DNA of 64,000 nucleotides from Ypsolopha sequella (lineage: Eukaryota > Arthropoda > Insecta > Lepidoptera > Ypsolophidae). The notes under the pieces are model-generated. The model did not search any database. It had not been told where the DNA came from and saw only the letters and a program-made list of their open reading frames with translations. Of this stretch, positions 18,428 through 63,299 are shown piece by piece. The stretch spans positions 2,914,001 through 2,978,000 of the forward strand of contig OW203991.1 in assembly GCA_934047225.1 (NCBI GenBank), read 5' to 3'. A program made the translations under genes and the position numbers. Numbering within the stretch: the first letter of the stretch is position 1; each line of letters opens with the position of its first letter.

Positions 18428-18641
18428 ATGTCGGGAAAGAAATGCAAACACTGTGGTTCCTCGGACATAGAAGTGGACCCAGCGCGAGGAGACGCTGTGT
18501 GCACGAACTGCGGGACCGTTCTTGAAGACAACATCATCGTAGCTGAGGTAGAGTTTGTGGAAAACGCCCATGGCGGCGCCTCTACGATCGGCCAGTTCGT
18601 ATCAGCTGATACGAAAGGAGGAGCTACTGGGTTTGGAGGAG
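18428..18641 (+). CDS. Brf1: Brf1 exon 1: TFIIIB subunit, N-terminal zinc ribbon
   Basis: Brf1 is the TFIIB-related subunit of TFIIIB. With TBP and Bdp1 it sits upstream of tRNA and 5S genes and recruits RNA polymerase III in the nucleus. Exon 1 encodes residues 1-72. The zinc ribbon is visible as paired cysteines at residues 6/9 and 25/28, and the stretch [20 protein letters not shown] is the conserved family signature, followed by the QFVS segment. The start is the ATG at 18428 with CACC before it. The exon ends in phase 1 at G|GTGAGT. Joined exons 1-8 total 1305 nt with no stop and all junction phases agree. The protein aligns with animal BRF1 through the ribbon and both cyclin repeats. 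The last third of the protein is not in this window. Confidence 0.96.
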
Positions 18642-18970: not shown

Positions 18971-19195
18971 CATTTAATGCTGGATGTGGACAGGAATCCA
19001 GAGAGGTTACAATCCGAAAGGCTCGTCATGGCATCACAGCTCTGTGCCAGCAGCTTCGGCTAAATCAACAATGTATAGACATCGCTTGTAACTTCTTCAA
19101 GATGGCTCTTTCACGTCATTTGACCAAAGGAAGACCGGCGACTCACATACAGGCAGCTTGCGTCTATATCACTTGCAGGACGGAAGGCACTGCCC
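18971..19195 (+). CDS. Brf1: Brf1 exon 2: first cyclin repeat
   Basis: Encodes residues 72-147 from acceptor TTCTAG to donor C|GTATCC. The reading contains QESREVTI, LRLNQQCIDIACNFFKMA, SRHLTKGR and YITCRTEGT, which match the first cyclin fold of BRF1. The split codon C|AC with exon 3 gives His at the position where vertebrate BRF1 has TPHMLLD. The donor GTATCC departs from consensus at positions +4 to +6. It is still the only site that preserves frame and homology. Confidence 0.93.
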
Positions 19196-20484
19196 GTATC
19201 CTTTTATAGAGTAAACCATAGTAACGGTGATATTCATCTATTTTGTCTTATAGAAATGACTCATCCAATATAACTGTTTTCAATATATAACTTTGAACTC
19301 TCACGTTTCATACACATTATAATTATATATAAACGGGTCCACCACAATCAAATTTTTCATCTTTTTCCCGTAGACCATGAGACATGCAACTGCCTCGAAA
19401 CGTCAGGTGTCCTTTTCGTAAAAAAAGTTAAAAATTTGGTTGCGTTAGACCCATTTATGTATATTATAAAATATAACAGTTGGCTTAATTGGGACATTAT
19501 TAGCCAGTTTTCATGATTTTTTTCAATAACAAACATATTATCCTTCTAACATATATCCCTGTGGGGACGTCAAAGGTGTTCCCGAGTGTGGTGTGGACTA
19601 TCACTGGGACAGTCAACACTCATACAAGTCTTAACTGACGATTTTTTACAAGGGGTGAAGCATTTTGTCCGATACTTTAATTTCAAATACAAGTTTTTAG
19701 AGCATTCAGATTTACCTCTCAGTTTTTTTCTTCACTATTCAATAACTGGGTAAGTTTACGAATACCATGCACATAAATTCCGAATATTTTGTTGGTTTAT
19801 TCATTAATTATGAAATTCTATTAGTATAGGATAGAGAACTGTAAAGAAAAAAAAAACTGATTGCAAAAACAAAACCATAGTTAAATTTTTAAGAAAATGA
19901 GTATATGCAAAATGTATCTTAATACACACAGACAAATTGAAAAAAATGCCTTTTTCGTATTTTTGTCCACAAAATAGAGCTTATTAAAATAGAGCTTATT
20001 AAACTGAAGGAACTAAATAAATGTTTAAATTTAAAAAAAAAACTAGTTGCTGCCTACTTATTTTCAAACATAGGGTATTTTTCATTTCCCAAAAGTTTTC
20101 TCTGTCTTTCGTTTGTTATCAAGTTATTATTGTAATCAGCAAGCAACAGTTCAAATATATTAGAGCATGCAGGAGTGCCTTATTCTTAATGTGGTTCTTT
20201 CCAGTCTAATATCCATAGCATATTAATAATTGTAGTGTACTGGACATAAATGGTAGTTTATACATGTCAGTGCATAATGCGGTGGTAGATGAAAATCACC
20301 AATACCTAACGTGTGCTACTCATCAAGACTGAGACTATATTTGTGAGTATATAATAATAATGTTACATTTTACATAGTATGATAAACATTAAATCCTCAC
20401 TTTAGTTTTCTTTTGCTTAAATAAATGCTTTATTTGCGGTTTTAATAAAGATCTGGTATGATATCCTTAACAAAGCTACAACAG
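19196..20484 (+). other. Brf1 intron 2
   Basis: Starts GTATCC and ends CAACAG. Holds a truncated SINE-like body at 19553-19800 and otherwise AT-rich sequence. Confidence 0.85.
19553..19800 (-). mobile_element. SINE-like body, truncated
   Basis: Shares the ATCCCTGTGGGGA hairpin, the GTGTGGACT/AGTCAACAC pair and CATGCACATAAATTCCGAA with 8205-8551. The tRNA-like head is missing. Confidence 0.6.
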
Positions 20485-20589
20485 ACCTATTGATTGACAT
20501 AAGCGATGCTCTTGGAATATGCTGTTATCAGCTCGGCCGCACCTACTTCAGATTGTCAAAGGCACTCTGCATAAATATCCCTTCGATTG
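20485..20589 (+). CDS. Brf1: Brf1 exon 3: end of first cyclin repeat
   Basis: This short 105-nt exon (residues 147-182) follows acceptor CTACAACAG and ends at G|GTGAGT. It reads LLIDISDALGICCYQLGRTY and then SKALCINIPSI, matching the BRF1 segment LLDLSDLL...LGKTF...CINAPAI. It has no ATG of its own and is too short to stand out as an open frame. It was found by extending exon 2 by homology and phase. Confidence 0.92.
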
Positions 20590-50252: not shown

Positions 50253-50455
50253 TCTTGTAAGTATTAGTATTAGAAAGTACGTTTCATAATTAATTTTCCT
50301 GAGTGATATATTTACTAATAAAGTAGTATATAGTTATTTATATACACGTACACCTACGTATGTATATCTACTTTTATATTCATCAATATTTTTATATACG
50401 AATTGTATATAATTTACTTTACCAAAAATTTTCAAGTGGATGTTAATTTGCTTTT

Positions 50456-50660
50456 GCAGGGGTCCAAGCTAGAGTTGGTTAACGAAACTAAGTTTTGCAG
50501 GGGTCCAAGCTAGAGTTGGTTAACGAAACTAAGTTTTGCAGGGGTCCAAGCTAGAGTTGGTTAACGAAACTAAGTTTTGCAGGGGTCCAAGCTAGAGTTG
50601 GTTAACGAAACTAAGTTTTGCAGGGGTCCAAGCTAGAGTTGGTTAACGAAACTAAGTTTT
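50456..50660 (+). repeat. 41-bp tandem repeat, 5 identical copies, inside a LINE frame
   Basis: The unit starts GCAGGGGTCCAAGCTAGAGT and ends ACTAAGTTTT. Five copies in 205 bases without a visible mismatch. The last copy runs into the RT reading NETKFLGITIDS, so the unit is LINE coding sequence duplicated out of frame. Confidence 0.97.
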
Positions 50661-54567: not shown

Positions 54568-54717
54568 ACCCATGCATCTATATCCTCCGCTTCGCGTCGC
54601 AGCTGCAGTTCGCAGAACGGAAGCACGAGGTGAGCATGACGGCGCTGCGACTGGTGCAGAGGATGAAGAGGGACTCCATACATTCTGGACGACGACCTTC
54701 CGGGCTCTGTGGCGCTG
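54568..54717 (+). CDS. Brf1: Brf1 exon 4: start of second cyclin repeat
   Basis: Encodes residues 182-232 after acceptor CCTGTTTCAG. It reads [15 protein letters not shown], then [16 protein letters not shown] and [10 protein letters not shown], the most conserved part of the second cyclin fold. The split codon G|AC gives the Asp of IDPC, joining perfectly to exon 3 across a 34-kb intron. The donor is GCGCTG|GTAGGT. The 3' two thirds of this exon, its donor and the first 57 bp or so of intron 4 are the founding copy of an eight-copy 154-bp tandem array. Confidence 0.95.
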
Positions 54718-55841
54718 GTAGGTCTATCTCTGTGGGGTTGTGGGGGAGGTCGTGGGCAAGGTTAGTGAGAACAAAAGCACGAGGTGAGCATGACGGCGCT
54801 GCGACTGGTGCAGAGGATGAAGAGGGACTCCATACATTCTGGACGACGACCTTCCGGGCTCTGTGGCGCTGGTAGGTCTATCTCTGTGGGCTTGTGGGGG
54901 AGGTCGTGGGCAAGGTTAGTGAGAACAAAAGCACGAGGTGAGCATGACGGCGCTGCGACTGGTGCAGAGGATGAAGAGGGACTCCATACATTCTGGACGA
55001 CGGCCTTCCGGGCTCTGTGGCGCTGGTAGGTCTATCTCTGTGGGGTTGTGGGGGAGGTCGTGGGAAAGGTTAGTGAGAACAGAAGCATGAGGTAAGCATG
55101 ACGGCGCTGCGACTGGTGCAGAGGATGAAGAGGGACTCCATACATTCTGGACGACGACCTTCCGGGCTCTGTGGCGCTGGTAGGTCTATCTCTGTGGGGT
55201 TGTGGGGGAGGTCGTGGGAAAGGTTAGTGAGAACAGAAGCATGAGGTGAGCATGACGGCGCTGCGACTGGTGCAGAGGATGAAGAGGGACTCCATACATT
55301 CTGGACGACGACCTTCCGGGCTCTGCGGCGCTGGTAGGTCTATCTCTGTGGGGTTGTAGGGGAGGTCGTGGGCAGGGTTAGTGAAAATAGAAGCACGAGG
55401 TCATGATGACGGCGCTGTGACTGGTGCAGAGGATGAAGAGGCATTCCAAACATTCTGGACGATGGCCTTCCGGGCTCTGTGGCGCTGGTAAGTCTATCTC
55501 TGTGGGGTTGTAGGGGAGGTCGTGGGCAGGGTTAGTGAAAATAGAAGCACGAGGTGAGCATGACGGCGCTGCGACTGGTGCAGAGGATGAAGAGGGACTC
55601 CATACATTCTGGACGACGACCTTCCGGGCTCTGCGGCGCTGGTAGGTCTATCTCTGTGGGGTTGTAGGGGAGGTCGTGGGCAGGGTTAGTGAAAATAGAA
55701 GCACGAGGTCATGATGACGGCGCTGTGACTGGTGCAGAGGATGAAGAGGCATTCCAAACATTCTGGACGATGGCCTTCCGGGCTCTGTGGCGCTGGTAAG
55801 TCTATCTCTGTGGGGTTGTGGGGGAGGAAGTGGGAAATGTC
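54614..55841 (+). repeat. 154-bp tandem array, 8 copies, spanning Brf1 exon 4 donor
   Basis: The landmark ATGACGGCGCTG recurs at 54636, 54790, 54944, 55098, 55252, 55406, 55560 and 55714, exactly 154 bases apart. Each unit holds about 96 bases equivalent to exon 4, the splice donor and about 57 bases of intron rich in GGG runs. The first unit is the genuine exon. Units 4-5 and 6-7 form a higher-order 308-base duplication with shared variants. Donors are GTAGGT in units 0-4 and 6 but GTAAGT in units 5 and 7. Extra units lack a pyrimidine tract before their exon-like part. Confidence 0.97.
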
Positions 55842-55977
55842 GTGTCCCAATGACTCTAATTATGTCACAGTTGCAAAAAGTACCATAATTCTCTCGACCG
55901 GTTTTGCTACCTTAGCATTTTAAACAGTTGACAAATACAAGCATGTTTTGCCTCATTATCTTCCCTTTCCCTTTCAG
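54718..55977 (+). other. Brf1 intron 4
   Basis: Native intron from GTAGGT to CCCTTTCAG. All but the last ~140 bases consist of the 154-bp array. Confidence 0.9.
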
Positions 55978-56204
55978 CCCTGCTAATAGCAGCCCGACTC
56001 CACGACTTCAGCCGCACCCCGAACGACGTGGTCCGAATCGTGAAAGTGCACGAGTCGACGCTAAGGAAGCGGCTGCTGGAGTTCGGGGACACTCCGTCCA
56101 GCGCGCTGACTGTGGACGAGTTCATGACTGTAGACCTGGAGGAGGAGCAGGACCCACCTGCTTTCAGGGCGGCCAGGAAGAGGGATAAGGAGCGGTTGGC
56201 GAAG
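55978..56204 (+). CDS. Brf1: Brf1 exon 5: end of second cyclin repeat
   Basis: Follows acceptor CCCTTTCAG and ends in phase 0 at GCGAAG|GTTAGT. It encodes residues 232-307: [18 protein letters not shown], then [25 protein letters not shown] and [11 protein letters not shown]. These correspond closely to the BRF1 motifs around [12 protein letters not shown] and LTIDEFMKIDLEEE. The tail [13 protein letters not shown] is basic and enters the linker after the cyclin core. Confidence 0.95.
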
Positions 56205-58603: not shown

Positions 58604-58721
58604 CTAATAGACGAAGAGGATGGCGAGAAAGAGTTGTCAGAGCTACAGAGAGAGATAGACTTACAATTAGAAAAGGACAACTGCAAAAGAAAGAAAGCCA
58701 ACACGCCCAATTTAAGTTTAG
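58604..58721 (+). CDS. Brf1: Brf1 exon 6: charged linker
   Basis: Residues 308-347, acceptor AAATTTCAG and donor G|GTAAGC. The product is a charged, probably alpha-helical stretch with EEDGEKELSELQREID. It corresponds to the helical segment of BRF1 just after the cyclin repeats (EVEGEISSYQ in human). Both neighbouring junctions keep frame. Confidence 0.87.
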
Positions 58722-59459: not shown

Positions 59460-59597
59460 AAGACAGAATAGCAGAAGGTGATGAAGCATCAAGATTTGCG
59501 GCGAAAGACACGATCACCCTGATAGGAGACATCGTGAAAGAGGTCCAACCGAAGAATGAGGCGGCAATGAAGCAGGAGAAAATTGAGAAAGGACTCG
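59460..59597 (+). CDS. Brf1: Brf1 exon 7: linker
   Basis: Residues 347-393, acceptor TTATTTCAG and donor G|GTGAGT, phase 1 on both sides. Acidic and lysine-rich sequence without a recognised fold. It is assigned by splice signals and by the continuous frame between exons 6 and 8. The weak conservation expected of the BRF1 middle region prevents stronger proof. Confidence 0.82.
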
Positions 59598-60514: not shown

Positions 60515-60642
60515 GCCCTGATCTGCACGTGATAGGGCTTGGCTCGACCGAGGACAAGGCCGACAAATTCGTGAAGCCAGAACCGAAGCAGATGTACAAC
60601 AAGGACCTCGTCAGAGAGGAGGACTTGCATCTTAATGACACG
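60515..60642 (+). CDS. Brf1: Brf1 exon 8: linker (last exon in window)
   Basis: Residues 393-435, acceptor TTATTCCACAG, ending GACACG|GTATCT in phase 0. It contains DLHVIGLGSTEDKADKFVKP. The donor is weak after +4. The conserved C-terminal homology block of BRF1, which binds TBP and Bdp1 (human motif around DDLEIDRYILNE), is not found downstream as far as 64000. At least one more coding exon should therefore lie beyond the window, past the LTR element. Confidence 0.82.
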
Positions 60643-62090: not shown

Positions 62091-62525
62091 GTCCCCCGCT
62101 CTGGGCTGAGCAATCAGTCCACTAGCTCATACAACCGGGAGACGGGAGAGAGTTGTCATGGCTCGTCACAAAATCGAACCTTCGACCAACACCTCTGCGA
62201 CGCGTGGAGTTCCGTCTCCGCCAAAACAACTTTAATATACGGCCCCGGCGCCAAAACAAGGATAGCAAGTTCATATCCTTCCAAAGAATTAAATTTCCTT
62301 CCCTAGGATGCTCAGTCCTGTCTGACCACAGAGAGGACGAGAGTTGAGGACCGCTTCCACTTTACAATACACAGTGGCAAGCTCCTCAAAAATTAGGACA
62401 GTTTCCCCAATAACGCAGCGGAGGTGGGTCTTCGCCGACTTGACGGCAGCTTCAAAAAAATTCCCTCCCCAGTGAGGGCAATTTGGGGGACTGTACCGCC
62501 AAGTTACCCCTTTCCGGGCGAAGAT

Positions 62526-62735
62526 TTAACTTAAACTAGCATAGTTATTTACAAAACAAAAATTATCAATATCTTTTAGATAGTTAGCAGTACCTTTGTA
62601 GTTTGTGCCATTGTCGGAGCGAATAAGTGAAGGTAAATCCTTACGCGACACGAAACGATCCAACGCGGCGACGAAGGCCTCCGTAGTCAAAGCTGATACC
62701 ACTGCCAAGTGAACGGCCTTGGTGGCCAAGCACAC
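62526..62735 (-). pseudogene. BEL/Pao integrase core fragment
   Basis: A 69-codon open stretch with the CLATKAVHL motif, the TTEAFVAAL helix and the SDNGTNY motif carrying the second catalytic Asp. The frame closes at a stop at 62526 and homologous residues resume in another frame below it, including a VEAVLNSRPL-like end. Integrase joins element cDNA to the host chromosome; this copy is inactivated. Confidence 0.85.
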
Positions 62736-63299
62736 AAATACGCAAGGTATGCTTTCACAACCCGAGCGTTGCGATTGCTAAAAACCCCCGTGCGCGTTAC
62801 GTATGTGTCAATCCGACACCAACAGATTTACCAAAGGTCCGTCTTGGGTAGAAGCAAAGGATGAAGACTTCCGTATGGCAGGTCAGCTCTCCAAAATCAG
62901 CCTCCAAAACGCAGAAGTCCTTCATAATCCGTGAAAGGATTCAAACGAGCAACCGCTCACTTCAGCCTGGCGTGATCCTCGCGCAGAACTCGAAGTCTAA
63001 ACTTGATGAGGTCCGCCTGAAGTACACGTACCGTGTACCAATGCGCTCCAACGCTCCTCTGCACTCACGGCTGGGGACAAAATATATGAATTTCATTGAC
63101 TGGTTGGTATTTCAACATAATACCACCATCATATTGGGATCCTCCAAATCTGCAAACAGTATATGTTCATTTGAAAGCCATTTCCTAAGTTCGAACATAA
63201 TAATCCAAGTATCGAATCAAATATCGAATATCCAAAATTGTGGATACCTCCACCAATGAAGAAGAACCCAGAGTCTTTTAAAACCAAATAGGATCCATC

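Follow-up and report, generated by a model that had tools for sequence, protein, structure and literature searches.

An eight-unit 154-bp minisatellite across the exon 4-intron 4 boundary of Brf1 in Ypsolopha sequella

In the Brf1 gene of Ypsolopha sequella, the boundary between exon 4 and intron 4 was found within a tandem array of eight 154-bp units. The array is probably a minisatellite that grew by unequal exchange, in which unit 1 would be held by selection and the other units would be passengers of intron 4. Brf1, the 90 kDa subunit of TFIIIB, is an essential Pol III factor. The window is the whole stretch of 64,000 nucleotides analysed here (C8:2914001-2978000), and the genome searched comprised 866.84 Mb in 151 contigs.

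Eight Brf1 exons were placed on the plus strand of the window. Exons 1 (18428..18641, 97% in tblastn), 2 (18971..19195), 3 (20485..20589), 5 (55978..56204), 6 (58604..58721), 7 (59460..59597) and 8 (60515..60642) were identified by tblastn with Brf1 of Plutella xylostella, which belongs to the same superfamily, together with a spliced reading. Exon 4 (54568..54717, 150 nt) lies within the second TFIIB/cyclin repeat, and yeast Brf1 in the PDB matches at 1.5e-23. Introns 1 to 7 are 329, 1289, 33978, 1260, 2399, 738 and 917 nt long. Spliced in silico through the first donor of exon 4, the eight exons encode a 435-aa N-terminal part of Brf1 without a stop, in which Pfam detected a zinc ribbon (9.1e-15) and two stretches of the TFIIB repeat (5.7e-46). 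The best hits were lepidopteran Brf1 proteins, the best of all being that of P. xylostella (86%), and the identity to the latter was 88% in an alignment of ten sequences. The initial annotation had named the gene Brf1 and placed the exon in the second cyclin repeat, and both assignments agree with the Plutella hit, the zinc ribbon, the two TFIIB repeats and the yeast match. A further Brf1 exon match was found by tblastn beyond the window at 67482-67586 (window numbering), and the remaining C-terminal exons, which would be expected to encode the PF07741 domain, were not located in the 10 kb that follow the window with the E-value limit applied. When the protein was compared with the genome, 15 of 16 matches fell at this locus. 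The only match elsewhere, on contig C9, was 30% identical (E 2.3e-7) and was taken to be a TFIIB-like gene. A pseudogene or an extra copy of Brf1 was ruled out by these matches; the locus is the only strong Brf1 match in the genome, and no other intact Brf1 was present.

Intron 2 (19196-20484) of the same gene carries the donor GTATCCTTT and the sequence TCCTTAAC, the last A of which lies 14 nt before the acceptor G. It looks like a U12-type intron, removed by the minor spliceosome. Such a type would explain the weak U1 pairing of its donor (-1.5) and its pyrimidine-poor acceptor (44%).

TRF reported the array at 54614-55834 with a period of 154, 7.9 copies, 94% matches, 0% indels and a score of 2120, at which chance is no issue. 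Cut at exact steps of 154 bp, the eight copies aligned without gaps, and the head-to-tail units of one length and high identity make the array a minisatellite. Each unit holds the last 104 nt of the 150-nt exon 4, followed by the GT donor and, with it, 50 nt of intron. A GT donor was present after position 54717+154k in all eight units, and they share a single acceptor upstream, as the initial annotation had stated. That annotation had also given the unit two thirds of exon 4, its donor and 57 bp of intron; the exonic share and the donor stand, and the intronic part is corrected to 50 bp by the unit start at 54614. The units lie on the plus strand at 54614..54767 (unit 1, with the functional exon end and donor 1 after 54717), 54768..54921 (unit 2), 54922..55075 (unit 3), 55076..55229 (unit 4), 55230..55383 (unit 5), 55384..55537 (unit 6), 55538..55691 (unit 7) and 55692..55839 (unit 8). 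When the 154-bp unit was searched against the genome, eight matches were obtained, all inside the array, and the unit was rejected as a dispersed repeat; this search skips very common words.

The sequence that follows the array is of another kind. Of 44 matches to the 3' flank (40 of 403 candidates scored), 38 lay off the locus. Eight loci (L013 to L020) were compared; the best match of one started at 55834, and those of the other seven started at 55840 or 55841. A dispersed-repeat fragment therefore abuts the array on the plus strand from about 55840 to 55905, the latter end being taken from the longest match, and a plain native intron was rejected as a description of the flank. It follows that unit 8 is incomplete, cut at about 148 of 154 nt, and that the array runs from 54614 to about 55839. 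The start given previously was thus retained and the end at 55841 was shortened; likewise, the exact length of 154 bp claimed for all eight copies holds for the indel-free steps and fails for unit 8. Since the flank is a dispersed repeat, the 182-nt intron that donor 8 would leave need not be ancestral. A second copy of the fragment was seen nearby in opposite orientation at three of the eight compared loci (L013, L016 and L019).

The position of the boundary was supported by comparison with other Brf1 proteins. The alignment of yeast Brf1 crosses the exon 4/5 junction without a gap. A search gave 2173 hits, and in each of the 120 orthologues listed from them GxCGA runs straight into A(L/I)L (111 counted by a strict pattern and nine from printed sequences). 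In none of these 120 did the HEVSM-type pattern occur twice. Short open reading frames that match the read-through frame of the unit had G after CGA in 97 of 120 cases listed of 222, A in 20, and were off-pattern in three. A G at this place is expected from a phase-1 intron here in many animals. Among 120 listed of the 222 protein hits to the two-unit read-through frame, neither a two-unit frame nor a reading of the intron part of the unit was found. Judged from these alignments, the intron position is old and the boundary is true.

Near-identical short tandem units are a known assembly hazard, and the assembler might have expanded a single boundary into eight. The units carry structured differences, however, the 1.2-kb array is short relative to HiFi reads, and the genome paper of Y. 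sequella gives 27x HiFi coverage and a QV of 65.2. The probability of an artefact is next to negligible, and the worry on this point raised in the initial annotation is largely answered by the copy differences together with the coverage and quality values in that paper.

The products expected from each donor were derived in silico. Donor 1 (54717) joined to 55978 was the sole donor that yielded Brf1. Use of donor 2 adds 154 nt and shifts the frame, and translation then ends within exon 5 (stop at 56186-56188) after 352 residues, which bears out the earlier claim that only the first donor gives a normal protein. With donors 3 to 8, translation ends after 283 residues at an in-frame TAG (54873-54875) that overlaps donor 2. 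With donors 1 to 8, exon 4 would be 150, 304, 458, 612, 766, 920, 1074 and 1228 nt long, respectively, and intron 4 would shrink from 1260 nt with donor 1 to 182 nt with donor 8.

Donor strength was scored by U1 duplex energy, which is a crude measure. The donor reads GTAGGT in units 1 to 5 and 7 (-8.8 kcal/mol) and GTAAGT in units 6 and 8 (-9.1). A site inside the exon part, GAG/GTGAGC or GAG/GTAAGC, reached -9.7 or -9.6 in units 1 to 5 and 7, and the corresponding site in units 6 and 8 had -4.2. Because donor 8 pairs slightly better with U1 than donor 1, and the internal site better still, donor strength leaves the choice of donor unsettled. With an upstream intron of 34 kb, exon definition is expected and should select donor 1, and intron definition should select donor 8. 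As donor 8 is separated from the acceptor by 182 nt and has the better U1 pairing, the choice made under intron definition would be the wrong one. In all eight units, the 50 nt after the donor contain three or four G runs, which are known to form a class of intronic splicing enhancers.

The eight units counted in the initial annotation were recovered, but the copies are not equivalent. Units 1, 2, 3, 4, 5 and 7 form type A and units 6 and 8 form type B. The six type A copies encode an identical 31-residue stretch, HEVSM...GLCGA, and the two type B copies have decayed, sharing a block of altered exon sites that includes an in-frame stop; unit 6 has two in-frame stops. At the unit edge, site 6 is changed in units 2 to 8, which gives R>Q in units 2 to 5, and unit 2 is otherwise coding-intact. 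The edge of units 6 to 8 also shows E>K and a stop via sites 5 and 6, so unit 7 is of type A over HEVSM...GLCGA only. From position 14 on, unit 7 equals unit 5. Units 5-6 and 7-8 were identical over 269 consecutive bases at an offset of 308, which indicates a late duplication of a 308-bp dimer whose first half is unit 5.

In the type A units, exon sites 8-104 contained four variable sites (13, 19, 82 and 97), and all four changes were silent (P 0.004 if all changes are equal, 0.011 for transitions only). This main test sets aside sites 1-7, the unit edge; when the edge is included, type A varies at eight sites, five of them silent (P 0.03 or 0.08). The type A intron half had four variable sites of 50. 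At this intron rate, 5.7 replacement changes would be expected over the about 71 replacement sites of sites 8-103, and none was seen (P 0.003; Fisher test against the intron 0.027), although the variable-site patterns are few and may be shared through conversion. In type B, three of nine changes were silent, as expected without constraint. The pattern is suggestive, but not proof, of growth from a selected first unit with decay of old units.

Such a history probably began with a tandem duplication of a 154-bp segment across the exon 4/intron 4 boundary, and unequal exchange would then have enlarged the array. The spliceosome would use donor 1, presumably because exon 4, with an intron of 34 kb before it, would be recognised across its 150 nt, and units 2 to 8 would be removed within the 1260-nt intron 4. 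Unit 1 would be under purifying selection. New units would arise from unit 1, which would leave type A units with almost only silent exon changes, and the older type B units would decay as plain intron. Copy number could change without damage to the protein as long as a coding-intact unit stays first.

The same units could also have arisen by a purely neutral recent amplification, in which the silent-only pattern of type A would reflect chance or youth and selection on unit 1 would leave no mark elsewhere. Only four exon variants lie outside the edge, the test weakens to the values given above once the edge sites are counted, and the 308-bp dimer copy shows that amplification was recent. Set against this, the variation of the intron half is not matched by a single replacement change in the exon part, and we regard the neutral reading as rather unlikely.

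Other explanations assign the units a role in splicing. Each of donors 2 to 8 gives a premature stop, and the GT and the G runs after it are kept in every unit, so that controlled use of these donors might produce stop-containing, degraded Brf1 mRNA and tune Pol III output. Recent copying accounts for the conservation of the donors, however, and such a switch is very unlikely. A different route, an intron of the Rogers type, would splice from the AG/GT in unit 1 (CACGAG/GTGAGC) to the same AG in a later unit and then use the donor of that unit. In silico, its product equals that of donor 1 for units 2, 3, 4, 5 and 7 and meets a stop for units 6 and 8, and it would explain why units 2, 3, 4, 5 and 7 are coding-intact. 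Against it, pyrimidines make up 25% of the 16 nt before the candidate acceptors of units 2 to 8, which end in GAG, whereas the seven acceptors of Brf1 have 44-100% pyrimidines and CAG or TAG. The poor acceptor context gives little weight to splicing through intronic units, and this route is extremely unlikely. The units were also rejected as exons in their own right, since only 25% pyrimidines precede the AG in front of the coding part of each later unit; this test is soft, as other AGs of the array reach 56% and the acceptors of exons 3 and 4 have 44% and 56%, respectively. Taken together, a redundancy device that splices via any coding-intact unit, or a tunable sink of Brf1 mRNA formed by donors 2 to 8, has a slim chance. 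If either were true, the intronic coding copies would themselves be selected, and individuals with arrays of different length would differ in Pol III capacity.

A minisatellite that gives multiple splice donors was reportedly described in human IFI6 by Turri et al. 1995. A later source states that two downstream repeat units of this minisatellite serve as donors and that three mRNA species result (PMC4526556). The initial annotation had held that tandem arrays are normally confined to either an intron or an exon, which overlooks this precedent. In both genes, a tandem repeat at the exon end supplies several donors in a row after one acceptor. The IFI6 units are short, about 12 bp, and two downstream ones are used as donors, whereas the Brf1 unit has 154 bp. 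The Brf1 array also differs in that two thirds of the unit code for part of a conserved fold, single extra units shift the frame, and the host gene encodes an essential Pol III factor.

Tandem duplications that create introns are described for ATP2A1 and a potato RdRp (PMC4974935). These cases resemble the Brf1 array in that part of a gene was duplicated in tandem, and the potato duplication also crosses an intron-exon boundary; in the Rogers model the duplicated exon part holds AGGT, as does that of the Brf1 unit. They gained a new intron with its own acceptor, however, whereas the Brf1 array multiplies donors and lengthens an old intron; no good acceptor was found within a unit of the array. 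In fission yeast, the introns of SPOG_01682/SOCG_00815 are described as 24-nt tandem repeats (PMC3629103), and the yeast repeats contain AGGT according to PMC4974935 and AGGC according to PMC3629103. Exon-derived tandem units are partly intronic in both systems, but the 24-nt units gave new introns, whereas the Brf1 array multiplied a pre-existing donor. A search of the open-licence literature, made without the gene name, returned no description of this locus and none of a similarly long coding unit, and no relevant paper on repeats at exon-intron boundaries was found in the open-licence literature. A multi-donor minisatellite is thus known; what is unusual here is the long coding unit, the host gene and the conflict between exon and intron definition.

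Eight near-identical donors after one acceptor constitute a natural experiment on 5' splice site choice in an essential gene, with the 150-nt exon and the 34-kb intron on the side of the first donor and the 182-nt intron and GTAAGT on the side of the last. Should the number of units vary among wild animals, the variants would serve as a graded test. The array also suggests how coding sequence borne in an intron may stay intact through exchange with a selected end unit.

Other repeats were seen in the window. A 41-bp unit repeated 5.1 times with 100% identity (TRF) lies at 50452-50660 in intron 3 of Brf1. Of 135 candidate matches 40 were scored, and apart from this repeat they comprised 39 stretches of some 45-50 bp at other places in the genome, so a dispersed element probably had a piece of one copy amplified here. 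At 2506-2936, TRF found 2.7 copies of a 159-bp unit with 86% matches. On the minus strand at 62289-62777, open reading frames resemble the integrase region of a retroelement, which we take to be of the Pao/BEL type.
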